In this document: positions 56-21,268 of the stretch, in pieces
How positions within the stretch are numbered: position 1 is the stretch's first letter
Layout of the letters: each line of letters begins with the position of its first letter
Virus record (IMG/VR): IMGVR_UViG_3300032294_002178
Span: 1-21,268 of that record
Length of the DNA stretch: 21,268 nucleotides
Direction: 5' to 3' (one strand)
Source: a virus
The notes under the pieces: model-generated
The model's input: only the letters and a program-made list of their open reading frames with translations
Database searches by the model: none
What the model was told of the DNA's origin: nothing
Translations under genes and position numbers: made by a program

Positions 56-526
56 ATGGCAAACGGTGTTACATATGGAATTAATTTCCCGTTCAGAGAT
101 TCTGTACGAGGAGACTACTTGGAGTTAACAGAGTTACAATCTCAACAAATAAAGGCTGACCTTGTTCACCTTTTGTTGACGAGAAAAGGTTCAAGATATT
201 TTTTACCAGCGTTCGGTACAAGATTATATGAATTTCTTTTTGAACCTTTTGACGGATTAACTTTCAATGCAATTGAATCTGATATAAGAGATGCGATTGA
301 AAATTTTATGCCGAATTTATTGGTAAATAGTTTATCAATAACACCTGCTGACCCACAAGAAGAATTAGACATAGCAACAGGACAAAATACTGTAGGTACA
401 AGTGAATCTTCAATTTATAGATTTCCTGGAAAAGGGACATCAGAGTATACTGCAAAAATAAGACTAGATTACTCAACTAACAACTCAACATTTGCTCAAA
501 GCGATTTTGTGATTATCAATATTTAA
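56..526 (+). CDS. 25: gp25-like baseplate wedge protein (GpW/gp25 family)
   Basis: This 156-residue protein matches the GpW/gp25 baseplate family (T4 gp25, P2 GpW, and the TssE/eCIS homologues). The diagnostic block runs from about residue 32 to 66: a helix with LLLTRKGSR (39-47), then LPAFGTRLYEFLFEPFD (50-66), which fits the family pattern of 'LL.T..G.R...P.FG..L...LFEP'. A second helix around 70-85 and the 'P.L.V.S.SI' strand follow. In T4-like phages gp25 binds gp6 and starts sheath polymerisation at the baseplate wedge. Here the next gene, 5 nt downstream, is a gp6-like protein, which supports the call. The length is somewhat above T4 gp25 (about 130 aa) because of a C-terminal extension. 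No Shine-Dalgarno is visible. The family assignment is strong; the T4-type phage context is inferred from neighbours. Confidence 0.93.
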   Translation: MANGVTYGINFPFRDSVRGDYLELTELQSQQIKADLVHLLLTRKGSRYFLPAFGTRLYEFLFEPFDGLTFNAIESDIRDAIENFMPNLLVNSLSITPADPQEELDIATGQNTVGTSESSIYRFPGKGTSEYTAKIRLDYSTNNSTFAQSDFVIINI

Positions 527-531
527 TATAG

Positions 532-2370
532 ATGGCAAACAATAGAATATCATATGCAACCAGAGATTATCAAGCGATAAGAACTGAACTTTTAAATTAT
601 GTAAGGACATACTATCCTGAATTAATACAGGATTTTAATGATGCTTCTGTATTCTCAGTTTTTTTAGATTTGAATGCCGCGGTTGCTGATAACCTAAACT
701 ATAATATTGATAGAAGTTTACAAGAAACTGTATTACAATATGCACAACAAAGGTCTTCAATTTATAACATTGCAAGAACTTATGGTTTAAAATTGCCAGG
801 ACAAAGACCTTCAGTATCTTTGGTAGATTTTTCAATTACAGTCCCCGCTTTTGGAGATAAAGAAGATGAAAGATATCTTGGAATACTAACAAGAGGGTCT
901 CAAGTTGTAGGTGCAGGAGTTGTTTTTGAAAACGTTTATGATATTGATTTCGCATCACCATATAATGCTCAAGGTTTTCCTAACAGATTAAAGATACCTA
1001 ATTTCAACTCAAACAACGTCCTTGTTAACTATACTATCACCAAAAGAGAAATAGTAGTTAACGGTGTTACAAAAGTTTTCAAGAGAGTTATTGGGGCAAA
1101 CGACGTTAAACCTTTCTTTGAATTATTCCTACCCGAAAAAAATGTTTTAGGTATAACTAGTGTATTATTAAAAAATGGTACAGAATATACAAATACTCCA
1201 ACAACTGCAGAATTTTTAGGTTTGGAAAACAGATGGTATGAAGTTGATGCTTTGGCTGAGGATAGAGTGTTTGTTGAAGACCCTACAAAAGTTTCAGACC
1301 AACCAGGAATAAAAGTTGGAAAATATATTCAAACGCAAAATAGATTCATCACCGAATATACCCCCGAAGGATTCAAAAAGATGACATTTGGTGGTGGTAC
1401 AAATACTGCTCAAGACCAATTAAATCAATTTACAACTTTGGGAACTACTTTAGAATTACAAAAATATTCTAATAATTTCTCATTAGGTTCAACATTAACA
1501 CCAAATTCAACATTGTTCGTTCAATATAGAGTTGGTGGTGGTTTAGCGACAAACTTAGGAACTAATGTCATTAATCAAATTGGGACAGTTTCATTCTTTG
1601 TAAACGGCCCTTCAGAGACAACTAATTCTTCAGTTGTTAGTTCCCTTAGATGTGTAAACGTGACTGCGGCGGTTGGTGGCGCTGGAGTACCATCTTTAGA
1701 AGAAATTAGAAATTATGTTTCATTCAACTTTGCGGCACAAAAAAGAGCGGTAACAGTTCAAGATTACGAATCTATAATTAGAAATATGCCAGCACAGTAT
1801 GGAGCACCTGCCAAAGTGTCTATTACGGAAAATGATAATAAAATTTTAATTCAAATATTATCATATGATACTTCAGGAAAATTGACCAACATAGTATCAA
1901 ACACCCTAAGACAAAATATTGCAAATTATTTATCAAATTATAGAATGATGAATGATTATATTTCAATTTTTACCGCTGATGTTATCGACCTTAGCGTTGA
2001 CGTTTCTATTGTCTTAGATTCTGCTCAAAACTCAGGACAAGTTATTTCTAGTGTTGTAGATAAAATATCTGATTATTTCAATCCACAAACGAGACAACTT
2101 GGACAAAATGTCTATTTGTCTGAATTAAGGAGTATTGTTCAAAATACAAATGGTGTATTAACAGTTGCAAACATTGATGTGACAAATGAGGTTGGAGGAC
2201 AATATTCTTCTGCGGAAACATCTATGGAGTATTCAAATCCTGAAACAAAGTTAATAGGACCTGTAGATGATACAATCTTTGCACAACCATCACAAGTTTA
2301 TCAAATTAGATATCCTAATAAAGACATTAGAGTATCGGTTAAGAATTTCCAATCAATTACTTTCTCTTAA
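532..2370 (+). CDS. 6: gp6-like baseplate wedge protein (baseplate J family)
   Basis: This 612-residue protein resembles T4 gp6 and the wider baseplate-J family, which forms the ring of the baseplate wedge and controls the switch that triggers sheath contraction. The N-terminal part (about 1-100, beginning with ISYATRDYQAIRTELLNYV) has the helical start typical of these proteins. The central part (about 100-380) is beta-rich. The C-terminal core from about 384 carries GVPSLEEIRNYV (385-396) and RAVTVQDYE (405-413), the 'R.VT..DYE' signature shared by gp6 and P2 GpJ, followed by alternating strands and helices ending in a 'YLSELRSIVQNTNGV' segment. The length is close to that of T4 gp6 (about 660 aa). 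It follows the gp25-like gene after 5 nt, which implies co-transcription. The family call is firm; the exact boundary of each subdomain is approximate. Confidence 0.92.
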   Translation: MANNRISYATRDYQAIRTELLNYVRTYYPELIQDFNDASVFSVFLDLNAAVADNLNYNIDRSLQETVLQYAQQRSSIYNIARTYGLKLPGQRPSVSLVDFSITVPAFGDKEDERYLGILTRGSQVVGAGVVFENVYDIDFASPYNAQGFPNRLKIPNFNSNNVLVNYTITKREIVVNGVTKVFKRVIGANDVKPFFELFLPEKNVLGITSVLLKNGTEYTNTPTTAEFLGLENRWYEVDALAEDRVFVEDPTKVSDQPGIKVGKYIQTQNRFITEYTPEGFKKMTFGGGTNTAQDQLNQFTTLGTTLELQKYSNNFSLGSTLTPNSTLFVQYRVGGGLATNLGTNVINQIGTVSFFVNGPSETTNSSVVSSLRCVNVTAAVGGAGVPSLEEIRNYVSFNFAAQKRAVTVQDYESIIRNMPAQYGAPAKVSITENDNKILIQILSYDTSGKLTNIVSNTLRQNIANYLSNYRMMNDYISIFTADVIDLSVDVSIVLDSAQNSGQVISSVVDKISDYFNPQTRQLGQNVYLSELRSIVQNTNGVLTVANIDVTNEVGGQYSSAETSMEYSNPETKLIGPVDDTIFAQPSQVYQIRYPNKDIRVSVKNFQSITFS

Positions 2371-2464: not shown

Positions 2465-5400
2465 ATGGGTCAATCATATAGAATAAGGACTGAATTAGGA
2501 ATCAACAAAACAATCAATGTACAGTTAGACCAACAGTTTGATTTTTTAGAGATACTTTCTTTGAAAATTCAACAAGAAGACGTGTACACCAGAAGTTGTG
2601 CAAACTATGGTGTCGTCGTTGGTAGAATTACAGCAAATAATGGATTGGGTGTTCCTAATGCGAGAGTGTCGGTATTTATCCCCATCACAGTACAGGACCA
2701 GTCTAATCCCTATATTTCAAGTATATACCCTTACAAATCTTTAACAGACAAAAATGAGGATGGATATAGATATAATTTATTACCATACGAACAATCCTAC
2801 TCTACACATGCTGCAACAGGTACGTTTCCATCAAGACAAGATGTTCTAACGGGAAACACCGCAATAGAAATTTACGACAAGTATTTTAAGTATACTGCAA
2901 AAACTAACGAAAGTGGTGATTACATGATTATGGGTGTTCCGTTAGGATACCAAACGATGGTTATGGATGTAGACTTGTCGGATATCGGTGAGTTTTCATT
3001 AACACCACAAGATTTAATTAGAATTGGTAGAGCTACCCCATCCCAAGTAGCTGGTGGTAGATTCAGAACTTCTACTGACTTAAATTCATTACCTCAGATA
3101 GTAACTATTACAAAAAGTTTAGAAGTTTCACCACTTTGGGGAGACCCTGAGGTTTGTGATATATCAGTTAATAGATTGGATTTCGACTTAAGAGATGATG
3201 CTAACATTGATATACAACCGACATCAGTATTCATGGGGTCAATATTTTCATCACCTGATGAATATAGAATTAGAAATAATTGTGAGCCGAGAGATGATTT
3301 AGGAAATTTATGTGATTTGGTATCAGGTCCAGGTCAAATACTTGCTATAAGGCAAACTATACAAATAGATACGGATGGTAATCCTGTGTTAGAAGTTTAT
3401 ACTTTAGAAAATTCTGGAAATGTAATTGACCAAGATGGTACTTGGTTATTAGAAATGCCTATGAATTTAGATTACTTTGTGACTAATGAATTTGGTGAAA
3501 AAGTTTTATCAAACGACCCAGCATTTGGTATACCGACTAAAGCAAAATATAGATTTAAAATTAAGTGGCAACAACCTAATTCATTAAGTGAAATGGTTAG
3601 AAGACCATATCATTTAGTACCTAACGTTAAAGAGTATGGATGGTTAACATCAACTCAAGACCCATCAAATTTAAACCCAAATTCTAATGCAAGAAAAAAA
3701 GTTGATAGTTCTTATTATTTTGGACTTGCGTGGAGTGGATACACTAACGGTTTCATAGGTAATGAATTAACCTCAAGATTAAATGAAGTTATAAATTGTG
3801 AAGATACTTTCTACGAGTTTAATTTTAATAAAGTTTATACTGTATCATCATTAATTGACCAATATAAAAAAGGGATTGGTAAAGGTAAATTTATTGGAAT
3901 AAAAGAAATTGACGATAATTCATGTGCAAGTAATGTAAATAAATTTCCTGTCAATGACGGATTCAGAAATTTTGATTTATTATATTTTATATTTTCAGTG
4001 TTATTTTTAGTAATTCAATTACTTGGTATCAATTTATTAATTGTTGCACATATTGCTTTATGGTTATATAATATAGTAATCTCAATATTATGTTTTTTAT
4101 GTAATTTAAGTTTTTTAGGTATTAGTCCTTTTCGTTTTTTATGTGGGTTAATTCCCGAAGGCCAATGTGATAATGTAAATACTACAATTCGTCTACCAAT
4201 GATTACTTATCCTGATTGTCAAGCTTGTGATTGTAGTACTGATGTATCATTTAAACCTAATGAAAATTTAGATTTTCCTAGTGGTGGATTGTCATTTTTT
4301 TCGTCACCACTTTTTTATCAAAATAATTTAGAATTATATTTTTCAGGTAGTTCGACTAATTTTATAGTGCCATTTGCCAATGCATTTTCTATCGCATTTG
4401 CGGGATTCAACGATAAAGCATTTATAAATGACGCAAAAATATACAAAATACCACAATCTTTTCTTTTTGAGGTAGATGCCTCATTTCCTAAGAGGTATAG
4501 ATTTGCTAATTCTAGAACATTACCTTTAGGTGAAAGAATCAATTTATTCAATCAAAGAAGTAATTATTTTAACGGATTAAATAAAATTAAAGTAACTTTT
4601 GCAAAAGACTCAAATATTAATAAGAATCACTTTGACAATACATTAACGGTATTAGCAAATCAAGAGTATAAAACAGGTGACTTGCTTACTTTTGTTAATC
4701 CATCAAATTCGTTTGATACAAATTATAAATATAGCGCGAACACTATAAATGGTATTATTAATGGTATAAGTGGTACATCTTATAATAGTAGTTCAGCAAC
4801 TACTGTGAATGTAAGTTATGCTACTTCACAATATAGTGCAACTACAGTATCTTATTCATTACCATATGGTTCCACAAATACAAATTATAAGTACCCTCAA
4901 GACATTGAATACTATCAAGTAGTTACTGCAATCACCGTTAGTGATGCTGCTAAAATTTGGACATCTGGAACAACTCAATCTATCGGGAATATTCTTGAAT
5001 CAAAACAAGATATTAATTGGTATTTAACCGATTATACACCTTATGTAGGGTTTTCAACTACAAGCAAACCATCGTTAAAATTCAGAGATTATTACGATGG
5101 ATTTGATAATCAATATATTTTAGTTCTACAAAGAGGGGTTGACCCTTATTCTCCGAAATATGTTAATGAATTTAAACTTGGTTTATTATTTGGTAGTACA
5201 ATTGATGACCCAAAATTTACATTTACTGCTGAAACAAGATTAAATATACCAATTCAAAAGTTGGAAAATAATGTGATTTCAGTTCAATCATTCAAAAATC
5301 AGAATGAAATTTTTTATAAATCGTACTTTTTCAAACCTGGTATAAGTGGAACTACAACTCCTGGTTTACAATACACAGGGTATACATCAAGTTCTGTTGG

Positions 5401-7210
5401 ATATTATGGAAGTACAGATGCTCAAAATACATCGGTAACCAGTACCAACGTATCTGGTATATCCGTATATTCTAAAACAAATAATCAGTTTTATTTATCA
5501 ACTATTAATAGCGGTAAATACGATTTAAGTGAAGACATTACATCTGGAGCTATTATGGTTGGTACTAATGCTTTTTTGGGTGGATTAACACAAAATGCAA
5601 TATTACAAGACTATTATAAAAGTGACTTTTTATATTATACGAAGGCTTTATATCCAACATTACTATCATCTCCGATGTTAATTAATAACTCAGTTAATAA
5701 TGTAATGAGAACTGATAGATTACCAACTTCAGATGTACTTGATGGAGGTTCATGGATTAATAACCCGAGTATATTACAACAAAATTTAAATTTTGGAATT
5801 TATGTTATTAGCGATACTGGTATTAATATTACAACTACTTCATATACAACAGGCGCGGAACAAGTAACACCTGATATATCGGGACTTCCAAACTCCCTCA
5901 GAGTATTAGAAAGTTTCAATTGTGAAAATATGGTTGGGTTAGATTGTTACCAAGGATTTGGTAATAATTTTAGTATTAATAGTGGATGTACGACTTCAGA
6001 TGCGGTTGATAAAGGATGTTATATGTTCTTAAGAAGACCTTTGATAGATTTATTCAAAGACTTGGATAATTTTTCTGAGTGGGGATATCGTTTTAGATTT
6101 TTCTATGGTTTATGTAGAGGAGTTTTATCACAGTCTTTTGTGAACAACTGGATTAACGGTTCATTATTTACTTTTCCAATCCAAGTAGATACGTATTTTG
6201 ACCAACAAAATAAACCATTACCCCCAAAGTTTTGTAAAGATATTACACATTTTGATTCAAATACTAATAATTTTTATGTTAGGAGTAGTCCATATAATAT
6301 AGTTACCAATAAATTTGTCGGAAAAAAAACTTTAAATGTTGGTGCAATTAATGATGTGAACTTGTTGTTTCCAACAACTATTATCAATTTAGGTTTTAAG
6401 GATTCTTTTTACTCTGAAATAGTATTTGACCCATCAACTAAAGCTTATGTACTACCAAATATAAATCCGACTAGTTATTCTGACACATCTGATTTGGTTA
6501 ATCTTTTTGTTATTTCTAGAATTACTGATGAAAATTTCTTAACAAGAATCATATCTTTTGGCGATAACTCGTTGAATCAGTTATTTTCAAGACCTTACAG
6601 AAGAGTCGACGGTGATTTAGCTCAATTAATGTCAATTAATTCAGAAATTGGTAATATAAGTTTTTCACCCCAATTCTACGAAAGTGTTAGTGGTGCTCCA
6701 ATGACAATATTAGGAACTGCAAACAACCCAACTATTGCTGTATGGTTTTCATCGACTACTGAAAATTTACAAACAAAAGATTATTTAACCCCTGGTAGAA
6801 TTAATTTTAGAAGTAGTGACAATGTGAATAATTATCCATATCCATATGGGATAAAATCTCAAGTGGTACCATTCTATCAATGGAGATTAGCGAACACGTC
6901 AACAATTTTTGGAAACGAAAACAATACTTGGGCGACTAATGAAACTGAGATTGTACAAAATAGAACATATCAATCTTTGGATAGAACAACTCTTACAACA
7001 CCAAACTATTTTAGAAATACTAACTCAACTGCAAGTGATTTGTATGCTAGAGGATATATATTCAGTGTAGACGCAAATGGAAAATATATTCAAACAGGGG
7101 CTTCGAGTAGTAAGTTTATAGTTGGTGCCCCATTCCAATTTTATTTCGGAACGGTAAAAGGTGCAACTGCACTTGATAAATTTAAAACAAAATACTCAAT
7201 AGGTGAATAA
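2465..7210 (+). CDS. Giant structural protein with CarboxypepD-reg-like domain and membrane-like segment
   Basis: I do not recognise this 1581-residue protein as a named family; position suggests a baseplate component. The N-terminus (1-45) has FDFLEILSLKI (25-35). Residues 49-72 (VVVGRITANNGLGVPNARV, then a strand) and 141-175 (FKYTAKTNESGDYMIMGVPL) look like the two halves of a carboxypeptidase-regulatory-like beta-sandwich, split by an insertion of about 70 residues. Residues 505-553 are very hydrophobic, long enough for two membrane-spanning helices, and end with CFLC (543-546). Further cysteines follow at 560, 568, 585, 588 and 590, the last three as CxxCxC. The region after 600 is beta-rich, Asn/Ser/Thr/Tyr-rich and unassigned, with more cysteines around 1155-1190. 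There is no N-terminal signal peptide. The stop overlaps the start of the next gene. Role in host envelope penetration is speculation. Confidence 0.75.
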   Translation: MGQSYRIRTELGINKTINVQLDQQFDFLEILSLKIQQEDVYTRSCANYGVVVGRITANNGLGVPNARVSVFIPITVQDQSNPYISSIYPYKSLTDKNEDGYRYNLLPYEQSYSTHAATGTFPSRQDVLTGNTAIEIYDKYFKYTAKTNESGDYMIMGVPLGYQTMVMDVDLSDIGEFSLTPQDLIRIGRATPSQVAGGRFRTSTDLNSLPQIVTITKSLEVSPLWGDPEVCDISVNRLDFDLRDDANIDIQPTSVFMGSIFSSPDEYRIRNNCEPRDDLGNLCDLVSGPGQILAIRQTIQIDTDGNPVLEVYTLENSGNVIDQDGTWLLEMPMNLDYFVTNEFGEKVLSNDPAFGIPTKAKYRFKIKWQQPNSLSEMVRRPYHLVPNVKEYGWLTSTQDPSNLNPNSNARKKVDSSYYFGLAWSGYTNGFIGNELTSRLNEVINCEDTFYEFNFNKVYTVSSLIDQYKKGIGKGKFIGIKEIDDNSCASNVNKFPVNDGFRNFDLLYFIFSVLFLVIQLLGINLLIVAHIALWLYNIVISILCFLCNLSFLGISPFRFLCGLIPEGQCDNVNTTIRLPMITYPDCQACDCSTDVSFKPNENLDFPSGGLSFFSSPLFYQNNLELYFSGSSTNFIVPFANAFSIAFAGFNDKAFINDAKIYKIPQSFLFEVDASFPKRYRFANSRTLPLGERINLFNQRSNYFNGLNKIKVTFAKDSNINKNHFDNTLTVLANQEYKTGDLLTFVNPSNSFDTNYKYSANTINGIINGISGTSYNSSSATTVNVSYATSQYSATTVSYSLPYGSTNTNYKYPQDIEYYQVVTAITVSDAAKIWTSGTTQSIGNILESKQDINWYLTDYTPYVGFSTTSKPSLKFRDYYDGFDNQYILVLQRGVDPYSPKYVNEFKLGLLFGSTIDDPKFTFTAETRLNIPIQKLENNVISVQSFKNQNEIFYKSYFFKPGISGTTTPGLQYTGYTSSSVGYYGSTDAQNTSVTSTNVSGISVYSKTNNQFYLSTINSGKYDLSEDITSGAIMVGTNAFLGGLTQNAILQDYYKSDFLYYTKALYPTLLSSPMLINNSVNNVMRTDRLPTSDVLDGGSWINNPSILQQNLNFGIYVISDTGINITTTSYTTGAEQVTPDISGLPNSLRVLESFNCENMVGLDCYQGFGNNFSINSGCTTSDAVDKGCYMFLRRPLIDLFKDLDNFSEWGYRFRFFYGLCRGVLSQSFVNNWINGSLFTFPIQVDTYFDQQNKPLPPKFCKDITHFDSNTNNFYVRSSPYNIVTNKFVGKKTLNVGAINDVNLLFPTTIINLGFKDSFYSEIVFDPSTKAYVLPNINPTSYSDTSDLVNLFVISRITDENFLTRIISFGDNSLNQLFSRPYRRVDGDLAQLMSINSEIGNISFSPQFYESVSGAPMTILGTANNPTIAVWFSSTTENLQTKDYLTPGRINFRSSDNVNNYPYPYGIKSQVVPFYQWRLANTSTIFGNENNTWATNETEIVQNRTYQSLDRTTLTTPNYFRNTNSTASDLYARGYIFSVDANGKYIQTGASSSKFIVGAPFQFYFGTVKGATALDKFKTKYSIGE

Positions 7211-8897: not shown

Positions 8898-9705
8898 AAT
8901 ACAAATATTACAAAATGGATTAGTTGACAAACAACTAACAATACCTGTGCAATTAACTTGGGATTATTTGGGTTTGGACCAAAGTATTGACGAATATGAA
9001 ACAGAGGTTATAACTAAAGTAATTGGTGTTGGTAGGGACTTTGAAGTTACAAGATTTCCACATGCACCTGAATCAGGAGATACTAATAATACCAACATAA
9101 AATATCAATTCTATTTTTATTCAGGAGGGTCATTGAATGATGAAATAAATTGGAAAATTGATTATAGAATGGAAGGGTTTACTGCACAAGAAATCTATTA
9201 CTATAGTAATGCATTTACTAACTCATTTTTCAAATTGGATTTATATGACAACGTTGACCCAAAAAAACAAAAAAATTACATAACAATTATCTTACCAACA
9301 CAACAGGGTTTGAAAATGGATGCTCTTATGCAAAGAACGCCAGTGTCAATAAAAAAACCCGATTATGTTTTAGATTATGTTGGTGATAAAGAAGGATTTT
9401 TTATTTATTGGTTGAAGAAAAGAACTTTTTTGGATATTAATACATTCTTCATGAGTGCAAAATTTTATGATGCCCAAACAGGCCAATTTGTTAAAATGAT
9501 GAATATGCCACAATCATCAATTTCGGGTGATAAGTACTCATTTGATAGTTCACAGTTTTTCTATTATAGAGTTGAATTGGACTATGAACAACACAATTAT
9601 AAAGTGTTTAATATGAATGGTAACCAAGACATCTATGATGCTACTTATCAAAGAGCTGGGACATTAGTACCCATAAAATGGTATGAATACATAAATGCTA
9701 ACTAA
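8884..9705 (+). CDS. Unrecognised structural protein
   Basis: This 273-residue protein has no family I can name. It starts at an ATG lying 14 nt inside the end of the preceding gene, and its stop overlaps the next start by one base (TAATG), so translation is probably coupled on both sides. The N-terminal third resembles a beta-rich binding domain (QLTIPVQLTWDYLGL around 17-31). The remainder is rich in aromatic residues (YQFYFYSGG, EGFFIYWLKKR). There are no cysteines, signal peptide, membrane segment or enzyme motif. Its place in an unbroken run of baseplate-region genes suggests a virion or assembly role. That is inference from context only. Confidence 0.78.
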   Translation: MDVNKIQILQNGLVDKQLTIPVQLTWDYLGLDQSIDEYETEVITKVIGVGRDFEVTRFPHAPESGDTNNTNIKYQFYFYSGGSLNDEINWKIDYRMEGFTAQEIYYYSNAFTNSFFKLDLYDNVDPKKQKNYITIILPTQQGLKMDALMQRTPVSIKKPDYVLDYVGDKEGFFIYWLKKRTFLDINTFFMSAKFYDAQTGQFVKMMNMPQSSISGDKYSFDSSQFFYYRVELDYEQHNYKVFNMNGNQDIYDATYQRAGTLVPIKWYEYINAN

Positions 9706-10787
9706 TGGAAGATTTATATAACATTATAATTTCGCCAGAGACAATTAAGGGAGATGTTTCAACAGTAACATATAGTGGTGTTTCTGTAGGGGTCTACTCC
9801 GCTATGACTCAGGTGCTTAGTTCAGGTCCGAACGGTTCGTCTTTATTGACAGGATTGACTATTCCAATTTTAATAAGACAAACTGCGGTAGACGTTGGTT
9901 ATTATAGTCCATTTGATGGAGCGGTGTTACAAAAAGATGTTGTTGCAAATTTTATATTTTCATCAACGACTGAAAATCCTTATGTTTACAACATATATAA
10001 CACATCAAGTGAATTTCAAAAGTTTCTTGACTTATCGGAATATAAAGTAGATTGGGGGGACGGGTCACCAAAACAAACAATTACAGGATATACACCTAAT
10101 TCAATTAGTCATACATATCCAAATGCCGAGGCTCAATATCAAATAGTATTGGAACAATTTAATCCGTGGGGTGTAACAAAAGTTGCTAAGACAGTCACAA
10201 CTCCATATCAGAATGTTGTAATTAATAATCCAAATGGGGAGGCATTTTTCATACCTGCTGGTGGTAATTGGTTGAACACACCTGTGAGTTACGACTATAT
10301 TTTTTCAGGAGATGCGGTTAATGAAATTTCGGCTCAAACGTCAAATAATTTCGTTACAGTTCCATTTACAATATCTGGTATAACTAAGTCAAGATTGACT
10401 GAATTGGCGTTATATGGTACTCCGAAATATCAAACAGGAGTTCCCGTGATTAAGAATGGGCAAATATGGGGAGCTATAAGTGATATGAATCCAATTTTTA
10501 CTGCGTATACTGTTCAAGAAATTAACTACTATGATTATAATGATGGTACAACAATATTTTTTGAACAATCATCAGGATTAACTGAAAATAATTTATCACA
10601 ACGACCAATAACCAAAGAAGAGGTTTTATTAAGAGTTATTGACCAACCACAGATACAAACCAATGTTTTTGTTGAAAGAGGAAAGAATTCTGCATATGAA
10701 AGAATTCAAAGATTAGGTGAGGTTGATAACTTAGGTGACATGATAAATTACGGTTATGGGTTTTTTAATGTTACGAAAAAAGAATAG
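9705..10787 (+). CDS. Structural protein with a PKD-like domain
   Basis: This 360-residue protein contains a PKD-like beta-sandwich at about residues 75-170. The signature is VDWGDGSP at 115-122, then SHTYP at 135-139, a strand with YQIVL, and NPWG, which follows the PKD order of 'WGDG...HTY...Y.V.L...N..G'. PKD domains are non-catalytic adhesion or spacer folds, common in surface proteins of Bacteroidota and in some phage tail proteins. The rest (1-75 and 170-360) is beta-rich and unassigned, and the C-terminal part has several charged helix-like stretches (around 305-345). The start codon overlaps the stop of the upstream gene by one base. A gap of 74 nt follows, so this gene may end a translationally coupled set beginning with the giant protein. 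Exact function is unknown. Confidence 0.8.
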   Translation: MEDLYNIIISPETIKGDVSTVTYSGVSVGVYSAMTQVLSSGPNGSSLLTGLTIPILIRQTAVDVGYYSPFDGAVLQKDVVANFIFSSTTENPYVYNIYNTSSEFQKFLDLSEYKVDWGDGSPKQTITGYTPNSISHTYPNAEAQYQIVLEQFNPWGVTKVAKTVTTPYQNVVINNPNGEAFFIPAGGNWLNTPVSYDYIFSGDAVNEISAQTSNNFVTVPFTISGITKSRLTELALYGTPKYQTGVPVIKNGQIWGAISDMNPIFTAYTVQEINYYDYNDGTTIFFEQSSGLTENNLSQRPITKEEVLLRVIDQPQIQTNVFVERGKNSAYERIQRLGEVDNLGDMINYGYGFFNVTKKE

Positions 10788-10861: not shown

Positions 10862-11770
10862 ATGGCAATAGGTTCATATGGTACTATAAGACCTTCAGAC
10901 GTAAGTCCTGAAGATGTACAAATAATAATGAATTACACACCATCAAGAGATGTTACGGATAACTTTGTCCTGACTGAACTTGATGCTCAAACGATATTAA
11001 AACCTTATTTTAATAATACCGAGACAGGGGGTAATGCTGGTGTTGAAGTCCTTGGTGGTTTATACAATTTGACTTTACCTGCAGAACAGTTTAATGCACT
11101 TGGATTCTACACACTTTACTTAAGACCTGCTCAAATTAGAACTGTAATCACAGATTGTGGTGTATTAAGCGCTCTCCCTAATGTTAAAGGTATTATAATT
11201 GATATAACTAACGTACCTGTTCAGTATCAAAATAAATTTGTACCTCAAGGATTGGTAGGATTTAGAATTGAGTATTTGAATGCCGACGGGTCTAAAATTC
11301 CTAACTTCTTTAGAGTTGTTACTTCGTCTTTCTTCTGTGAACCAGTTGTTACTAACGAAGTTAACACAACACAAAAATCCGTAAGATATAGATATGTTGA
11401 TGGAACCTCAAATTTAATTTTCTTAACACTATCACCATCATCATCACCAACTAATAAGCCAAACGCCACACCGTTTATTGGACAACCTAGTCAGAATATC
11501 ATTATATCAAACACATTCTTCAATCCTGTAACATTAGAAATTGAAATGGTTGAAAACGATATTTCAACTCTTGCAATTGCACTTTACGGTAATCAGACTA
11601 AGTCTATTGACGATGGTATCTACACAATTTACGATAGTCAAGATAACATCTACAGACAATACAACTTATATGAGATTAGAGACCAATTTAATGCATTATT
11701 GTATGAGGTTAGACAAAGTAGAGGGAATAATATTGATTTCAGTAAAAACTTTACAAATATAACTACTTAA
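10862..11770 (+). CDS. Unrecognised structural protein
   Basis: I cannot name this 302-residue protein. It opens with a polar N-terminus (SYGTIRPSDVSPEDV). A beta-rich region from about 60 to 180 includes LPAEQFNALGFYTLYLRP and VKGIIIDITNVPV. A short Ser/Pro/Asn linker lies near 190-205 (LSPSSSPTNKPNATPF), and the C-terminal domain (about 210-302) ends in a helix. The linker suggests two globular domains. It begins after a fresh A-rich leader, unlike its coupled neighbours upstream, and its stop overlaps the start of the gp7-like gene (TAATG), so it is probably expressed with that gene. This fits a wedge accessory protein, but nothing in the sequence proves it. Confidence 0.78.
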   Translation: MAIGSYGTIRPSDVSPEDVQIIMNYTPSRDVTDNFVLTELDAQTILKPYFNNTETGGNAGVEVLGGLYNLTLPAEQFNALGFYTLYLRPAQIRTVITDCGVLSALPNVKGIIIDITNVPVQYQNKFVPQGLVGFRIEYLNADGSKIPNFFRVVTSSFFCEPVVTNEVNTTQKSVRYRYVDGTSNLIFLTLSPSSSPTNKPNATPFIGQPSQNIIISNTFFNPVTLEIEMVENDISTLAIALYGNQTKSIDDGIYTIYDSQDNIYRQYNLYEIRDQFNALLYEVRQSRGNNIDFSKNFTNITT

Positions 11771-14748
11771 TGGCTACATCGAGAACCAAATATTTTTATC
11801 CACCTAGACCAGGAAGTGGTGCGGGTACATTTTCCGACAACATTGTGGGTTTACAAACTGTTGAAGGTGGTGGACTTACGCAAGGAAATTTTGAGTTTAC
11901 AACAGGTGTGACTGAAAAGGTTAACAGAAAATTCAACGTAGGTGCGTTCTCAGAACCTATCTCGTTGGAGATGTTGAACATTGACAGTTTAGATGAAAGT
12001 AGAAGAATTCTGTCGACTCAATTCAGAGTATATCCTAACTATGATATTAGTCAAGTTTTGAATTTTTCAATGTACGGTTCATTGGCTAAAAGATTCAGTG
12101 TGTCAATTACTCAAATAATTAATTATTTTCCTGCTTCTTTGGATGTTGTATTTAATGCAAATGACTATACAACAGGAAATACTGCAATCAATATTTCATA
12201 TGATGTACAAAATGACGAAACTTATTTTCAAGTTGATGTAAATAGGATTAACAATCCATTTGATATAGACTACTCTTTAAGTGCCTCAACAAACATTTCC
12301 GTCAGAGAATTACAAGTTTCACCTTATAGAAATTTATATGCTACCTATTTAGATTACTGTATTAGTATAAATGATAACATATATAATGTATTATCATTTA
12401 CTCCATCAGAAACTTTATCTTCGGGTTATTTAACATTTTATGTGTCAGGTGCTCCTTTTGGAACAACTGCAACAACAATTGAAGACGACTTTCAAATTAG
12501 ACCAAACGATTTTATAGTAGATAAAGTATTTGCCGAGACATTTGATGAGGTTCAAAAGTTTTTAGTTAATAGATTAATTAGACCTGAATATACTGCAATA
12601 TTCCAAGTACCTCAACAAAATGAGTATGGACAAACTTATACGGATTATCAACAAGTGACTTGGCCAAAAGATGGTCCTTGGAATTTAGACATTAGTTCTT
12701 TCTTGTTTGATGCGTATTTGGAACAAGTTCAAGCTATCGCACTGAATTTAGATGAGTTCAAAACCAACTTAATTTCAAGATTTTTAGTTACTGATTCATT
12801 GAAAGAATTTGATACCTTGGGTCAAAAAGTTGAGAAAATATTCCAAATTTATGGTAGAAGTTTTGACCAAATAAAACAATTTGTGGATGGATTGGCTTAT
12901 ATGACCTCGGTTAATTACAATCCTTCAAATGATATACCATCAGAATTATTGGTTAACTTAGCCAGAACTCTAGGCTGGACATCAAATTTTTCACCAATAA
13001 CTAACGAGGATTTCTTGGGGTCAGTCTTTGGTAACACAAACACTCCAACTTATCCTGGTTATGCAAGAGCCCTGACACCAACTGAGTTGAATTATGCGTT
13101 TTATAGAAATTTAATATTAAACGCTTCATATTTGTTCAAGTCTAAAGGAACAAGAAGGTCCATTGAATTTTTATTAAGATTGATTGGGGCTCCCGATTCA
13201 TTAATAGAATTTAATGAACACATTTATTTAGCTGACCAAAAAATTAATTTAGACCAATTTTATACCCAATGGGCTCAAATATCTGGTGGAACATATGTAC
13301 AACAAAGTCCAAGTTATTTACCTAACGATACGTTTAAAGTTAAAGGACAATTATTTACTGCATTTACATCGACATCATCTTATGAAGATACTAGCATCAG
13401 ATTAGTTGATTATCCAATGGACGCTGAAGGTTACCCAAGAGCTCCACTTAATACTGAGACTTATTTTTTCCAAATAGGTTCTGGTTGGTATGAAGAAACT
13501 CCACAACATAGAAGTCCTGACGAGGTGGTTCTTACAGGTGCTGTTTTCACAGGTCAAAATTTTGATATTCAAACACAATTAATGCCATTTACCTATGGTC
13601 AAACGTATTTAAATAGATTTAGAAATTTTCCATTCATGAATGAAGGTTTTAAACTTCAAAAAGTTGTGGACAATAATAAGTCATGGTTACAAGATGACAA
13701 CAAAATCAGAGTGTCAACTCAAGGTGATTATAATGCATACTACTTTGTTGATAACGAAAAATTAGTACTGAATGTTAAGAATCTTGATTTATTTTTGAAT
13801 CCTGCTCAAGGTATTGTTTACGATGTGTGGGACGAATCTAGAAGATATGACTATCCGATACCTGAATCAGGTTTTACTGTCGGATATCCCGTACCAGGTG
13901 GTGTAGATTCAACATATATTAATCCTGAACCAAAGAAAAAAACATTCTTTGAATTTTCTCAAACATTTTGGGAAAACATGATTAACGTTAGAAACAGACA
14001 ATACATCACTGATGGTAAAACTGGTGGTTATCCTACATTACAATCTATATTTTGGAAATATATTCAGTCACAACAAACTGTTGGATTACCGAATAACCAA
14101 TATACTTACCAAAAGTTGATTGATTATGTTAATGGGATTGGACCTTATTGGTTGAAGTTAGTAGAACAAATGATACCTGCAACAACCATTTGGCAAGGAG
14201 GAGTTAAATTGGAAAACAATGTTTTCAATAAACAAAAATTTGTTTATAGAAGACAAAGAGGTTGTCAATTTATACCAGTCCCTGTGGACCCATGTTATAT
14301 TATATCAAATATATTTGATTATACATGTTCAACTGAATATGTAGACTTCTTTATTTATCCATGGTTGAATGGTGATGTAACTGTGTCTAATTTCAGTAGT
14401 ATATTAGTTAACCGAGTAAACAACATGTTGGCATCAAGCGGATTAACATTGAGCCAGTGTGTTGAAAGTTCAATTTCAACAACTTGGTATGTTGATTTGA
14501 AAGTTGGAAATGAAACTATTATTCAAAATTCTTTCTATAGTGGATTTGGACTAACTGACGTGCCAACAAATTCTCAATGGAGAAACGCTTTAATTAATTA
14601 TTTACCAAATATGTATGAATATGGCTACACATATTTCTTAAATGGTAATACATTAACCATAACTAACTTAACTTGCCAACCTCAAAATTTACAAGAAACA
14701 GTATTTTTGAATGTTGGGATAAATATTGATATAGATTGTACTAACTAA
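11770..14748 (+). CDS. GpI/gp7-like baseplate wedge protein with C-terminal adaptor domain
   Basis: This 992-residue protein carries a signature of the phage tail protein I class (P2 GpI, structurally equivalent to part of T4 gp7). A helical region at about 328-410 contains the NDIPSELLVNLARTLGW segment. Residues 443-475 contain YRNLILNASYLFKSKGTRR followed by SIEFLLRLIGAP, matching the class pattern of a helix with 'KGT...I...L...G'. In contractile tails this protein links gp6/GpJ and the peripheral fibre network. The N-terminal 320 residues are beta-rich and unassigned. The middle (500-860) is also unassigned. The C-terminal roughly 119 residues (874-992) look homologous to the end of the next protein. 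The start overlaps the previous stop by one base, and the next gene begins 2 nt after the stop. Confidence is high for a tail structural protein, moderate for gp7 equivalence. Confidence 0.8.
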   Translation: MATSRTKYFYPPRPGSGAGTFSDNIVGLQTVEGGGLTQGNFEFTTGVTEKVNRKFNVGAFSEPISLEMLNIDSLDESRRILSTQFRVYPNYDISQVLNFSMYGSLAKRFSVSITQIINYFPASLDVVFNANDYTTGNTAINISYDVQNDETYFQVDVNRINNPFDIDYSLSASTNISVRELQVSPYRNLYATYLDYCISINDNIYNVLSFTPSETLSSGYLTFYVSGAPFGTTATTIEDDFQIRPNDFIVDKVFAETFDEVQKFLVNRLIRPEYTAIFQVPQQNEYGQTYTDYQQVTWPKDGPWNLDISSFLFDAYLEQVQAIALNLDEFKTNLISRFLVTDSLKEFDTLGQKVEKIFQIYGRSFDQIKQFVDGLAYMTSVNYNPSNDIPSELLVNLARTLGWTSNFSPITNEDFLGSVFGNTNTPTYPGYARALTPTELNYAFYRNLILNASYLFKSKGTRRSIEFLLRLIGAPDSLIEFNEHIYLADQKINLDQFYTQWAQISGGTYVQQSPSYLPNDTFKVKGQLFTAFTSTSSYEDTSIRLVDYPMDAEGYPRAPLNTETYFFQIGSGWYEETPQHRSPDEVVLTGAVFTGQNFDIQTQLMPFTYGQTYLNRFRNFPFMNEGFKLQKVVDNNKSWLQDDNKIRVSTQGDYNAYYFVDNEKLVLNVKNLDLFLNPAQGIVYDVWDESRRYDYPIPESGFTVGYPVPGGVDSTYINPEPKKKTFFEFSQTFWENMINVRNRQYITDGKTGGYPTLQSIFWKYIQSQQTVGLPNNQYTYQKLIDYVNGIGPYWLKLVEQMIPATTIWQGGVKLENNVFNKQKFVYRRQRGCQFIPVPVDPCYIISNIFDYTCSTEYVDFFIYPWLNGDVTVSNFSSILVNRVNNMLASSGLTLSQCVESSISTTWYVDLKVGNETIIQNSFYSGFGLTDVPTNSQWRNALINYLPNMYEYGYTYFLNGNTLTITNLTCQPQNLQETVFLNVGINIDIDCTN

Positions 14749-14750
14749 GA

Positions 14751-16883
14751 ATGGCAGATTTTAATTATATTGTATCGGTTACAGGTGATTGTCAATCAAA
14801 TTCATCTGGGGCGATGTCATTGTTTTATTCAGGGGGTACTCCACCGTATACTACTGAGTGGGCTGCGCCTTTTTTATCTTACACTGCAACAACCAATCCT
14901 GCTTTTCTAGGTTCATTGAGCGCTAATACCTATGTTCTTAGGGTTAATGATAGTACATTACCAATCAACCAAGAATTTTTTATTAACGTACCAATTTCAA
15001 GTGGGATTTGCTCAAGTATTACCGCAGTACAAGGTACGACTTGTTCTTTAAACAATGGTTCAGTTACTGGTACATCTACATCTGAATTTTCGTCAACAAA
15101 CTATTATCTTTATTTTGCGGATAATACTTACATCACTTCTGCAACAACTAATACATCATATGTTACGTTTGATAATTTGACTGCGGGAACTTATTATATG
15201 ACAGTTGAAGATTTAGGAGGATGTTCTGGTACAACTTCTGATTTCATTGTTGAAGGTTCGAACCCATTAAGTTATGGTTTATACGTTGTACCTAATTCGA
15301 GTTGTGGAGGCTTTCCCATAGGTAAAATATTTGTAACAGGTGTAACAGGACATGCACCATTTACTTATTTATGGAATACAGGACAATCAGGGAGTACTAT
15401 TACGGGATTAACAAGTGGGAGTTATTCAGTTCAAGTTACCGACAATTTCGGTTGTTCATTAACCCAAGAGGGTTATGTTGCTGATGTAAATTCAATTGGT
15501 TTAAGACCATTTCAAGCAACACAACCTAGTTGTTTTTCATCTAATGGTACAATAACAGTCCAAATTACGGGGGGTACTGCACCATATTACTATTCTGCAT
15601 CTACAGGAAATATTTTTGTAGGTTACCCTCAAACATGGACATTGTCAGGTTTATCCGCAGGTCAGTATAACTTCCAAGTTACAGATGCCGCACTATGTAC
15701 TGTTGTTGGAGGAACAACACTAGAAACACCTCAAGGTATTTCATCTCTAAACATAAACGCTCAGGGTTCAACTTGTTCAAGTTCAGGAGGTTCAATAACA
15801 GTATCAGTTATCGGAGGAACAACACCATATGTCTACACTTTGATAAAACCAAATGGAGACACGGTTAATGTTAATAATACACAAACAACTCAAGTATTTT
15901 CAAATTTATCAACAGGCACTTATACTGTAGTAGTTCAGGATGCGGTGGGATGTTCGTTCATGCAAGAAGTAACATTATACGCGACAAATACTTTTACAAT
16001 TTCAACACAAACCACAGGAACAACTTGTAATCAAAATAATGGTTCGGTTTTAGTAACAAAAACTTCAGGTGGAACTTCACCTTTTACATATACATTAGAT
16101 GGTAATGTAAGTGTATTAAATACTGAATTATCTGCAGTTACATTTAATAACGTTCTTGGTGGACAACACACAGTTACTGTTTCAGATGCGACGGGTTGTA
16201 CTCAAACAACACAAGTATATGTCAACCAAAGTGTGCCTTTAGATTTTATATTATATACTACATCTTGTGGAACTGGTTCAAATGGAAGTCTAACTTCATT
16301 CATATCTTCAGGTACACCTCCATATACATTCAATTGGTCAAGTAATATACCAAACAATCCACAAAAAATTCAAATTACAGGATTAACTGCTGGTACTTAT
16401 AGTTTGACTGTCGTTGATGATGCAGGTTGTTCATTAAAAAGAACAAGCATTATTGATTGTGATGCCACGTATGTTTCATACCAAACTTACATAATGGGGT
16501 CTGAAAAATTCAATGTTGAAACATTGACTAAGTATGGTTTATCTCAAATGTTGAATGAAGGGTTTAATGATTTGACCTCAGGTAATACAAGTTGTAGTTT
16601 AGTCTCCGCCACATTCGGAGTTACAGTTTCTGTAAACCCTTTGGGTTCAACTACAAGTTCAAACTTTTTCACTTCAACATCGTTAGTTAGTGCGCCAACT
16701 GACAATCAATATTATGACACAGTGAAAAATTTATTGAGTTCAATATCGGGTATCGGAAATATAATTATTGACGATTCCAATAACCAAATAACTATTGAAA
16801 CAAATCCTGGAAATACGACATTAAACGGACAAGAAATTGTTGTGGATTTAACGATAGTTTATGACATTATGTGTATATCATGA
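14751..16883 (+). CDS. SprB-repeat adhesin-like virion protein
   Basis: This 710-residue protein has about seven tandem repeats of 70-85 residues in positions 1-565. They share the SprB-type pattern: a Cys near the start, an 'NG.I.V' strand, 'GGT.PY.Y.W', then 'L.AGTY.V.V.D..GC'. Clear examples are GGTPPYTTEW (28-37), HAPFTYLWNTG (about 201-211), GGTAPYYYS (near 274), GGTTPYVYT (near 355), GGTSPFTYT (near 440) and SGTPPYTFNWS (near 521). Such repeats are known from SprB, the mobile gliding adhesin of flavobacteria. There is no signal peptide or type IX secretion C-terminal domain, so a virion protein is more likely than a secreted one. Residues 586-710 form a different domain that resembles the C-terminus of the gp7-like protein upstream. 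The first and second repeats are degenerate. It probably projects from the baseplate as an adhesin; that role is inferred. Confidence 0.85.
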   Translation: MADFNYIVSVTGDCQSNSSGAMSLFYSGGTPPYTTEWAAPFLSYTATTNPAFLGSLSANTYVLRVNDSTLPINQEFFINVPISSGICSSITAVQGTTCSLNNGSVTGTSTSEFSSTNYYLYFADNTYITSATTNTSYVTFDNLTAGTYYMTVEDLGGCSGTTSDFIVEGSNPLSYGLYVVPNSSCGGFPIGKIFVTGVTGHAPFTYLWNTGQSGSTITGLTSGSYSVQVTDNFGCSLTQEGYVADVNSIGLRPFQATQPSCFSSNGTITVQITGGTAPYYYSASTGNIFVGYPQTWTLSGLSAGQYNFQVTDAALCTVVGGTTLETPQGISSLNINAQGSTCSSSGGSITVSVIGGTTPYVYTLIKPNGDTVNVNNTQTTQVFSNLSTGTYTVVVQDAVGCSFMQEVTLYATNTFTISTQTTGTTCNQNNGSVLVTKTSGGTSPFTYTLDGNVSVLNTELSAVTFNNVLGGQHTVTVSDATGCTQTTQVYVNQSVPLDFILYTTSCGTGSNGSLTSFISSGTPPYTFNWSSNIPNNPQKIQITGLTAGTYSLTVVDDAGCSLKRTSIIDCDATYVSYQTYIMGSEKFNVETLTKYGLSQMLNEGFNDLTSGNTSCSLVSATFGVTVSVNPLGSTTSSNFFTSTSLVSAPTDNQYYDTVKNLLSSISGIGNIIIDDSNNQITIETNPGNTTLNGQEIVVDLTIVYDIMCIS

Positions 16884-18380: not shown

Positions 18381-21268
18381 ATGAGCTTTAATTATAAAAA
18401 TCCAACGTCAGACACCCGTGTAACAGTTCCATTCTCAGTAGATTTAGAATCAACAACTGGTACAAATTTTAGTGTAGATTCGGTGGGTGGATACATGGAA
18501 GTTTGGAGTCTAGCTGATTTGAACTGGACAATCCCACAAGACGTTTATGATAATGGTGGGCCAGTAAACTACTCAGGTAACACCATCCCTATCAATTTTA
18601 TTAGTGGTGGGTACGTTCCTTATAATCCTCCAGTTATTAATCAACTGAACCTTTATAATGATGGTATTTCTTCAGGTAGAAGAAGATTGGGTATGTTGGT
18701 TTTTGTCCAAGAAAATGAGACAACATATCAATACTTAATTCCTGATTATAATACTCTTTGGAATGCAGCCTTAGCTGATGGAGATATTATTGAAAATGAA
18801 TTTGGATATTCGGTAATTAATTTAAATCCAAGTGGACAGGCCCTTATGGACGCATGGACAGGCTCAACTATTGAGGGAGTTAATGGTGTCAGTAGAGAAG
18901 ACGCCAGATGGGTAATTGCTAATCTGAATGACACCTTCATTACAGGAGGTACATATTTTTCGGCTTCGACAACTTTACAATTATATAATAATAGCGGAGG
19001 TACAGTAACAATTACAGGATTTACAGGTACAGTAACAGGAGGAACATATAACAGTGGTAGTGCAACTTTATCACTTAATAATAGTGATGGAAGTATAGTT
19101 TCAATTACAGGTATTACTTCAGGTTCTGGAGCTGCTTTATCCGTTGGAGATGGTACAACGACAGTTTTTCCTGTTTCAGGAATTACTTTCAACGGGGCAT
19201 CTGTGACTAATAATTCAAATGGAAATATTACAGTTACAATTACAGGAGGAACCACTGGAACTTCAGGAACCGCGGGTACATCAGGAACTGCTGGTACATC
19301 TGGATTAAGTGGTGTAAACGGGACAAATGGTTCAAGTGGTACAGATGGAACTAGTGGTACTTCAGGAACAAGTGGTACTTCAGGAACAAGTGGTACATCA
19401 GGAACTAGTGGTACAGATGGTACTAACGGTACATCGGGTACAAGTGGTGCGGATGGAACTAGCGGAACAGATGGAACTAGCGGAACAGATGGAACTAGCG
19501 GAACAGATGGAACTAGCGGAACAGATGGTACTTCTGGTACTTCGGGTACAACAGGTACTTCGGGTACTTCGGGTACAACAGGTACTTCGGGTACTAGCGG
19601 CACAAACGGTACTAGTGGAACTGACGGTACTAGTGGAACTGACGGTACTAGTGGAACATCAGGAACTAGTGGAACGGACGGTTCTTCAGGAACTGCTGGA
19701 ACATCTGGATTGAGTGGAGTAAACGGAACGAATGGCTCAAGTGGTACAGACGGAACTAGTGGTACTTCAGGAACTAGTGGTACTTCAGGAACAAGTGGTA
19801 CATCAGGTACAGATGGTACTTCAGGAACAAGCGGAACGTCAGGTTCAAGTGGAACAAGTGGTACATCAGGAACAAGTGGAACAAGTGGGTTAGAAGGAAA
19901 CCTTGCTGTTTGGAGATTTACAGGAAATACTGATACTAGTCAAAATCCTGGAACAACTTATTTTTCTTTGGATAGTGGTGATGATTTCGGTACTACAACA
20001 ACTTCAATTGCAATAAATGATATTGCATATTTTCCTCAAAGTAATTTTGGAACAATATTGAACGGTCTAACCATCGGAACAATATTGAAAATTGTGAGGG
20101 TCGATGACTCTACCTTTTTCAAGGTATTACGAATAACTCAAGTATCACCTTTAGTTGGAAGTTTTGAAAATTTTGATGTTCAACAAGTTGCTTCGGGAGG
20201 TTCAGGCACAGTTCCTGACAATACTGAGTTTATATTAATAGTTATAGGGCAGTCAGGGACGTCTGGTACTTCAGGAACATCTGCTACTTCAGGAACAAGT
20301 GGTACATCGGCAACAAGTGGAACTTCAGGAACTAGCGGTACATCGGGAACTAGTGGTACTTCAGGAACTAGTGGTACAGATGGAACATCTGGTACATCAG
20401 GTACAGATGGTACATCAGGCACTAGTGGTACATCAGGTACTAGCGGTACATCAGGGACTAGCGGTACATCAGGAACAAGTGGCACAGATGGTACTTCAGG
20501 TACTAGTGGCACTTCAGGAACAAGTGGAACAGATGGTACTTCGGGAACTGCTGGAACATCTGGATTAAGTGGTGTAAACGGAACGGATGGTACTTCAGGA
20601 ACTGGCGGTACATCAGGGACTAGTGGAACATCGGGTACATCAGGTACAGACGGTACATCAGGGACTGGTGGAACATCGGGTACTTCAGGAACTAGTGGTA
20701 CTTCGGGGACTAGTGGAACTTCAGGTACTAGCGGTACTTCGGGAACTAGTGGTACAGACGGAACTTCAGGTACCTCAGGAACTAGTGGCTCTTCAGGTTC
20801 AAGTGGAACAGACGGTACATCAGGGACTAGTGGAACGTCGGGTACTTCAGGTACTTCAGGAACTGATGGGACTTCAGGAACTAGTGGAACAACAGGTACT
20901 TCAGGTACTAGTGGTACAGATGGTACTTCAGGTACAACAGGTACATCAGGAACTAGTGGAACAGACGGTACATCGGGTTCTTCGGGAACTAGTGGTTCAT
21001 CAGGCACAGATGGTACCTCAGGTACTAGTGGAACTTCAGGTACAACAGGAACATCAGGAACTAGTGGTACAGACGGTACTTCAGGTACAAGCGGTACTTC
21101 AGGTACAAGCGGTACTTCAGGTACAAGTGGTACCGATGGAACTAGCGGAACTTCAGGTACAAGCGGTACTTCAGGTACTAGTGGTACTTCAGGTTCAGAT
21201 GGTACATCAGGTACATCAGGAACTAGTGGTACTTCAGGTACAGATGGCACATCAGGAACTAGTGGTAC
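18381..21268 (+). CDS. Collagen-like fibre protein, 3' end outside the window
   Basis: This frame is open from the ATG at 18381 to the last base of the window: at least 962 residues, no stop reached. Residues 1-185 form an N-terminal domain of unknown family (GRRRLGMLVFVQENETTYQY, 99-118), probably the virion attachment part. Residues 186-289 are Gly/Thr/Ser/Asn-rich beta repeats (GGTVTITGF, GGTYNSGSATLSL, DGSIVSITGI). Residues 290-505 are 72 uninterrupted Gly-X-Y triplets, mostly GTS, GTD and GTA. Residues 506-622 form a globular insert (NLAVWRFTGN ... EFILIVIG). A second Gly-X-Y array starts at 623 and continues to the edge, with two Gly-to-Ala breaks. Gly-Thr-Ser triplets are compatible with a collagen-like triple helix, so a trimeric fibre is likely. 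The distal tip, which would show the receptor-binding domain, is not visible. The long antisense open frames here are by-products of the repeats. Confidence 0.88.
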   Translation, partial: MSFNYKNPTSDTRVTVPFSVDLESTTGTNFSVDSVGGYMEVWSLADLNWTIPQDVYDNGGPVNYSGNTIPINFISGGYVPYNPPVINQLNLYNDGISSGRRRLGMLVFVQENETTYQYLIPDYNTLWNAALADGDIIENEFGYSVINLNPSGQALMDAWTGSTIEGVNGVSREDARWVIANLNDTFITGGTYFSASTTLQLYNNSGGTVTITGFTGTVTGGTYNSGSATLSLNNSDGSIVSITGITSGSGAALSVGDGTTTVFPVSGITFNGASVTNNSNGNITVTITGGTTGTSGTAGTSGTAGTSGLSGVNGTNGSSGTDGTSGTSGTSGTSGTSGTSGTSGTDGTNGTSGTSGADGTSGTDGTSGTDGTSGTDGTSGTDGTSGTSGTTGTSGTSGTTGTSGTSGTNGTSGTDGTSGTDGTSGTSGTSGTDGSSGTAGTSGLSGVNGTNGSSGTDGTSGTSGTSGTSGTSGTSGTDGTSGTSGTSGSSGTSGTSGTSGTSGLEGNLAVWRFTGNTDTSQNPGTTYFSLDSGDDFGTTTTSIAINDIAYFPQSNFGTILNGLTIGTILKIVRVDDSTFFKVLRITQVSPLVGSFENFDVQQVASGGSGTVPDNTEFILIVIGQSGTSGTSGTSATSGTSGTSATSGTSGTSGTSGTSGTSGTSGTDGTSGTSGTDGTSGTSGTSGTSGTSGTSGTSGTSGTDGTSGTSGTSGTSGTDGTSGTAGTSGLSGVNGTDGTSGTGGTSGTSGTSGTSGTDGTSGTGGTSGTSGTSGTSGTSGTSGTSGTSGTSGTDGTSGTSGTSGSSGSSGTDGTSGTSGTSGTSGTSGTDGTSGTSGTTGTSGTSGTDGTSGTTGTSGTSGTDGTSGSSGTSGSSGTDGTSGTSGTSGTTGTSGTSGTDGTSGTSGTSGTSGTSGTSGTDGTSGTSGTSGTSGTSGTSGSDGTSGTSGTSGTSGTDGTSGTSG
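19284..19401 (+). repeat. Cassette copy 1 with GLSGVNG signature
   Basis: This 118-nt stretch encodes GTAGTSGLSGVNGTNG and the triplets after it. It recurs at 19689-19806 with the same protein sequence and about eight base changes, all at third codon positions. A shorter third copy starts at 20544. Confidence 0.85.
19689..19806 (+). repeat. Cassette copy 2 with GLSGVNG signature
   Basis: This is the second copy of the 118-nt cassette, 405 nt (45 triplets) after the first. All of the differences I counted from copy 1 are synonymous (GGT/GGA, TTA/TTG, GGG/GGA, ACA/ACG, GGT/GGC, GAT/GAC, ACA/ACT). Confidence 0.85.
20247..21268 (+). repeat. Collagen-like array 2, continues past the window
   Basis: At least 113 Gly-X-Y triplets follow the globular insert, beginning GQSGTSGTSGTS. 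The third-position residues are mainly Ser, with Asp, Thr and Ala. Glycine is replaced by alanine at 20283-20285 and 20310-20312, and two triplets are Gly-Thr-Gly (near 20595 and 20661). Serine codons alternate TCN/AGY, and I saw no two adjacent triplets both using AGY. A GLSGVNG signature occurs at 20562-20582. The array is cut by the window end. Confidence 0.92.

Follow-up and report, generated by a model that had tools for sequence, protein, structure and literature searches.

Two neighbouring genes in the baseplate region of an uncultured phage encode proteins of otherwise different architecture, a wedge-type protein of 992 residues (A) and an adhesin-like protein of 710 residues (B). A first-pass annotation of the DNA had proposed that both proteins end in the same module. 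Are these two ends really related, and what might a common domain do on a wedge-type subunit and on an adhesin? To answer these questions, we analyzed the 21-kb IMG/VR fragment that carries both genes (21,268 nucleotides, called the window below), which belongs to a group of uncultured freshwater phages, together with its relatives.

The locus and its neighbours

Upstream of gene A, the window carries genes for a gp25-like and a gp6-like wedge subunit (Table 1), and five genes lie between the gp6-like gene and gene A. Gene B is followed by the genes of a 101-residue protein and of a Thr-Pro-rich protein and then by a collagen-like fibre gene. In the relatives, gene B is located directly 3' of gene A and in most of them the genes of a 302-residue and of the 101-residue protein flank the pair.

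Table 1. Features of the window discussed in the text (positions in nucleotides of the window)
Feature	Position	Strand	Basis
gp25-like baseplate wedge subunit (context)	56-526	+	phrog_261 baseplate wedge subunit, E = 1.4e-18
gp6-like baseplate wedge subunit (context)	532-2370	+	phrog_219 baseplate wedge subunit, E = 3.4e-23
Gene A, 992 residues, baseplate-wedge-type (gpI/gp7-like signature), copy 1 of the domain at its C-terminus	11770-14748	+	ORF; weak PF09684
gpI-like core of A, residues 362-483, '..YLFKSKGTRRSIEFLLRLIGAP..'	12853-13218	+	tblastn, BLASTP, hhalign
Shared domain, copy A, residues 874-992	14389-14745	+	AlphaFold2; homology to copy B
Gene B, 710 residues, SprB-repeat adhesin-like protein with copy 2 of the domain	14751-16883	+	ORF; Pfam SprB
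SprB-type Ig-like repeat region of B, residues 1-570	14751-16460	+	Pfam SprB, BiPBP_C, Y_Y_Y; PHROG Hoc-like Ig matches
Shared domain, copy B, residues 586-710	16506-16880	+	AlphaFold2; homology to copy A
Cys897 of A (domain Cys24) = Cys615 of B (Cys45 of the 140-residue segment)	14458-14460 / 16593-16595	+	
Pro932 of A (domain Pro59), two residues before helix 2 = Pro649 of B (Pro79)	14563-14565 / 16695-16697	+	
Cys990 of A (domain Cys117), just after the last strand = Cys708 of B (Cys138)	14737-14739 / 16872-16874	+	

A number of observations were made on the neighbouring genes. The 1581-residue protein of the baseplate cluster (2465-7210) contains a long hydrophobic stretch at about residues 505-575 (FIFSVLFLVIQLLGINLLIVAHIALWLYNIVISILCFLC...), which is unusual in a tail structural protein and is perhaps membrane-inserting. 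The 360-residue protein (9705-10787) has a very conserved C-terminal peptide (NVFVERGKNSAYERIQRLGEVDNLGDMINYGYGFFNV) and matches the profile of the A domain weakly and probably spuriously. The 302-residue protein (10862-11770), which is encoded directly 5' of gene A, was the most conserved among nine proteins compared (mean column identity about 90%), and an FSK.F..I ending is common among its relatives. The collagen-like fibre gene (18381-21266) encodes GTSGTSG repeats and runs off the window; the long antisense open reading frames within it are artefacts created by these repeats.

Architecture of the two proteins

Gene A is conserved in more than 140 relatives. Its product had been annotated as gpI/gp7-like. 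In hhalign, A aligned with P2 gpI on the KGT signature (a weak match, P = 0.04) and the gene order gp25-like, gp6-like, A, adhesin is that of the gpI/gp7 (BW3) class, with five genes intervening. The family profile did not bear the assignment out: gene A matched PF09684 at E = 0.04-0.1 (10.4-10.8 bits), which is under the curated cut-off of 20.6, the Pfam search of the window protein gave no PF09684 match, and Mu gp48 gave no profile match to A in hhalign. In each of two large records, however, this PF09684 match was the only one and was located in gene A. Compared with the gp7/gpI/BW3 class (T4 gp7, P2 gpI, Mu gp48, XM1 gp17; PF09684 Tail_P2_I), A is alike in the KGT..(S)I signature and in its location, 3' of gp25-like and gp6-like genes with an adhesin gene as its next neighbour, but it differs by its PF09684 score, its size and an end domain that is absent from the families searched. 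These sequence data weakly support the assignment of A to the gpI/gp7 (BW3) wedge family.

The sole named relative of gene A was found in Microcystis phage Mel-JY01 (PP395634), a baseplate-region protein that matches the gpI-like core alone (tblastn E = 1e-5, BLASTP E = 3e-11); a search of the Mel-JY01 genome showed that the shared domain is absent from it. On one contig (L117, L173, L283), gene A is distributed over two frames (653 + 319 residues), which reflects either an assembly frameshift or a real mutation.

The description of B as SprB-like was confirmed. Pfam SprB (PF13573) matched B in five stretches (E = 2.4e-20; 72.3 bits, cut-off 28), all of them outside the shared domain, and the family was also detected in the divergent B relatives L408, L498 and L511. 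B is similar to SprB-repeat proteins, which are known from the gliding adhesins of Bacteroidota, in carrying at least five SprB-type Ig-like repeats; it differs from them as a phage protein that is encoded in a baseplate cluster and that ends in, or is interrupted by, the shared domain. The PHROG matches of the Ig-like region are Hoc-like head decoration families, which might suggest that B decorates the capsid and that its likeness to the end of A is an accident of domain shuffling. We consider this highly improbable, since these matches fall on generic Ig-like repeats outside the shared domain, B is always encoded right behind the wedge-type gene of the baseplate cluster and has the domain in common only with A.

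In front of copy B there is a conserved linker (16461-16505) that is predicted to be disordered. A C-terminal location of the domain, as originally described, applies to every A protein examined, but B is more variable: in 25 of 141 B relatives the domain is internal and is followed by another 31-694 residues, often Thr-Pro linkers and a variable tip. When such extensions were searched against Pfam, three gave no match and one an LRR-like match.

Homology of the two C-terminal regions

When the two ends of the window proteins were compared directly by BLASTP, no match was obtained (E = 36). We collected relatives from IMG/VR, and with shallow family profiles built from close relatives hhalign aligned A and B collinearly over the domain (P = 5e-4). 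A search of the records of 12 relatives with the B profile picked out the end of A in two of them (E about 5e-4). For control measurements, 464 windows of 140 columns each were taken from the phage's own protein families and were used in forward and reversed form. Here, the best non-self partner of each domain was the other copy, with a score of 27.5 against 19.3 for the next unrelated window.

Intermediate relatives were then brought in by a query on the core of gene A. Among them, the gene after A in L408 was matched by the A profile (E = 3.9e-10) and by the B profile (4.3e-26) over one and the same stretch. Rebuilt profiles, each made from its own family alone, aligned over 94 columns with an hhalign probability of 95.4% (P = 2e-8). 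The B-HMM detected A proteins at E = 3e-4 (1.8e-9 in a larger set), and the B profile matched 135 A proteins of the final set at ≤1e-3. Even BLASTP connected the two copies of one and the same phage in L426 (3e-7), L374 (1e-5), L408 (2e-5) and L362 (7e-5). On the basis of these profile and sequence comparisons, the homology of the two copies, as members of one family, is established.

The first-pass annotation had placed the module correctly in both proteins, and the landmarks it had listed (the motifs F....L...PT[ND].Q and N..(I)TI, a Cys and the final Cys) are real. Its ML..G match was about nine residues out of register, and the first helix aligns FSSIL of A with LSQML of B. Both cysteines, the proline (Table 1) and a phenylalanine (Phe49 of the A domain, Phe69 of the B segment) are conserved in the two copies; these residues are invariant in the 21-row joint A/B alignment and reach at least 94% in the full families. 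Each of the two cysteines occupies every row of both family alignments.

Two further candidates for the family were rejected. The 360-residue protein was considered as a third carrier of the domain (A profile, E = 0.0015-0.1), but the alignment is confined to its 'FVERG...YGYGFF' tail and lacks the C-terminal strands, and its hhalign score was 19.3 compared with 27.5 for B. A Thr-Pro-rich open reading frame of L003 (E = 0.1) was discarded as a low-complexity match.

One might argue that two beta-rich ends came to look alike by chance or convergence, since the BLASTP search of the window pair was empty and the tail of the 360-residue protein gives a spurious weak match of similar size at shallow depth. 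The profile match of the rebuilt families, the crossing match in L408, the within-phage BLASTP hits, the common predicted order of fold elements (see below) and the shared invariant residues render such a coincidence extremely improbable.

Predicted structure of the two copies

Both copies were folded separately with AlphaFold2. The model of copy A (pLDDT 92, pTM 0.83) consists of H2-16, E30-39, E42-53, H61-78, E80-85, E88-93 and E105-114. For copy B, a model of moderate confidence was obtained (pLDDT 76, pTM 0.68) with the elements H27-39, E43-59, E63-72, H81-93, E98-104, E109-114 and E125-139. Thus, the seven elements follow one another in the same alpha-beta-beta-alpha-beta-beta-beta order in both models, and the profile alignment places equivalent elements of A and B together.

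When the model of copy A was searched against viral models (BFVD) with Foldseek, the top match was A0A6J5LD72 (E = 6.4e-4, probability 1.00, TM 0.59), a 714-residue 'SprB repeat' protein of an uncultured Caudovirales phage. Judged by its length and name, this protein is a B homologue, the name being silent on the C-terminal domain; a 985-residue protein that ranked behind it is probably an A homologue. Taken together, the order of the elements and this cross-match indicate that the predicted fold is common to both copies. The conserved cysteines flank the first and the last strand of the domain and, judging by their positions only, they probably form an intradomain disulfide that links the beginning of strand 1 with the end of strand 5.

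A fold search of the PDB with both models yielded no significant match; the phage tail chain 9vvr_d came up with both of them (probability 0.51 and 0.35) and was dismissed as not significant. As suspected from the outset, no named family matched the domain: Pfam, PHROG, NCBIfam and PDB contained no convincing match and only isolated weak ones. Among the latter, a PDB sequence match to FepE/enterobactin transport (E = 0.007) was isolated, was unsupported by the fold searches and was rejected.

Distribution and evolution

A search with a joint profile found exactly two copies, one in A and one in B, in each of 13 records, five of which are 309-326 kb long, and no copy in three clade-II records. 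In the fetched loci, every domain-bearing open reading frame was of the A or B type, the few apparent exceptions being split A genes. Neither copy matched any of the named phages of INPHARED, and no relative was found among the GTDB genomes.

Next, we inspected 147 distinct complete neighbour pairs. The domain was present in both genes of 141 pairs, in neither gene of six and never in one gene only, but joint presence or absence may reflect one evolutionary event and the counts are thus not independent. The six pairs lacking the domain belong to clade II. Here, the A proteins are 38-40% identical over residues 1 to ~827 and have a different end, and the neighbours of A are unrelated to B, with no SprB repeats detected. 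The C-terminus of the clade-II A proteins was considered as an equivalent shared module, but it is unrelated and is not common with its neighbours. In the clade-II relatives L356, L357 and L370, Tyr is the last residue of both the A protein and the protein encoded two genes downstream, and in many cases a Gly-rich tail precedes it (..GGGGY, ..EGGY).

The tree separates all A copies from the B copies by a branch with a support of 100/99, and the deep branching order is identical on both sides. Thus, the domain goes back to a single old duplication in the ancestor of the phage group, and the two copies have been inherited together since.

Possible function of the shared domain

In the phage Milano, receptor-binding proteins bind to the C-terminal domains of BW2 and BW3, and binding of the receptor-binding protein to BW3 has been stated for earlier baseplates too (PMC10811340). 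Flexible parts of XM1 gp17 bind the tail spike (PMC10457771), and a docking loop for the fibre is present in Mu gp48 (PMC11915804). A fibre gene follows directly on the wedge gene in P2 (I-H) and Mu (48-49), as B follows A. From the role of the wedge class as anchor of receptor-binding proteins and from this gene order, we infer that the two domains constitute either a joint between A and B or sockets for a common partner. A domain that was duplicated once and retained across the relatives would probably join the adhesin to the baseplate. For a docking module that connects the SprB adhesin B to the wedge protein A or the baseplate, we see about an even chance; wedge class, gene order and the joint presence or absence of the two copies speak for it.

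This proposal starts from the single domain of some 120 residues that was duplicated once in the ancestor and is now carried by the adjacent wedge-type A and adhesin B. As a wedge-type subunit, A would be the usual anchor of receptor-binding proteins in contractile tails. Most likely, the related domains would pack onto one another or lie side by side at A's end and would mount B at the periphery of the baseplate, and the SprB repeats of B, in some relatives together with the Thr-Pro-linked tip, would project toward the host. That wedge and adhesin hold each other via the duplicated domain (paralogous hetero-docking), with host-binding modules freely exchanged on the adhesin side, is conceivable but somewhat doubtful. 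For trimerisation, which had also been suggested, we found no evidence.

Alternatively, both copies may bind one third component and would then be parallel sockets rather than mutual partners. Candidates are the 101-residue protein after B, the 302-residue protein upstream and the collagen-like fibre. Duplication of a binding domain would most simply yield two sockets of shared ancestry, and the flanking 302- and 101-residue genes are maintained in most relatives. However, clade II has a 302-like gene upstream of A and yet lacks the domain, and thus the 302-residue protein alone does not require it. All in all, a third component appears unlikely, although it deserves consideration.

The domain might also be a module of general use in folding, capping or oligomerisation, the two copies of which do not contact each other. 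In phage proteins, beta-rich ends frequently act as caps, and the domain is always terminal in A. When whole domains were compared in a mirror-tree test, the pair of A and B domains appeared specific, but with segments of equal length this pair was not singled out; since the effect was abolished, we did not use the mirror-tree as evidence for docking, and the non-specific outcome is compatible with a generic module. Its internal location in part of the B proteins indicates that the domain is not simply an end cap. Its restriction to the A and B gene types in every record searched and the lack of mixed presence and absence among the neighbour pairs also argue against such a module, which we regard as rather improbable.

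In T4, the tail proteins gp10, gp11 and gp12 have folds in common that go back to duplication, and these proteins set a precedent for paralogous domains in contacting parts of a baseplate. The A/B domain differs from them in fold and in the genes that carry it, and it had no match to solved structures here. As a domain that attaches an adhesin to a wedge, it would be of a known kind; we did not find a description of such a fold at this place, paralogous on both partners, and among open-access papers, judged by titles and abstracts, the domain is not apparently described.

The shared domain is a candidate for addition to Pfam or PHROGs, and its signature (C..., F......P, ...C-end) could pick out baseplate-bound adhesins in metagenomes. 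As a marker of wedge and adhesin, it offers a testable attachment point for the host-binding proteins of uncultured, jumbo-sized freshwater phages.
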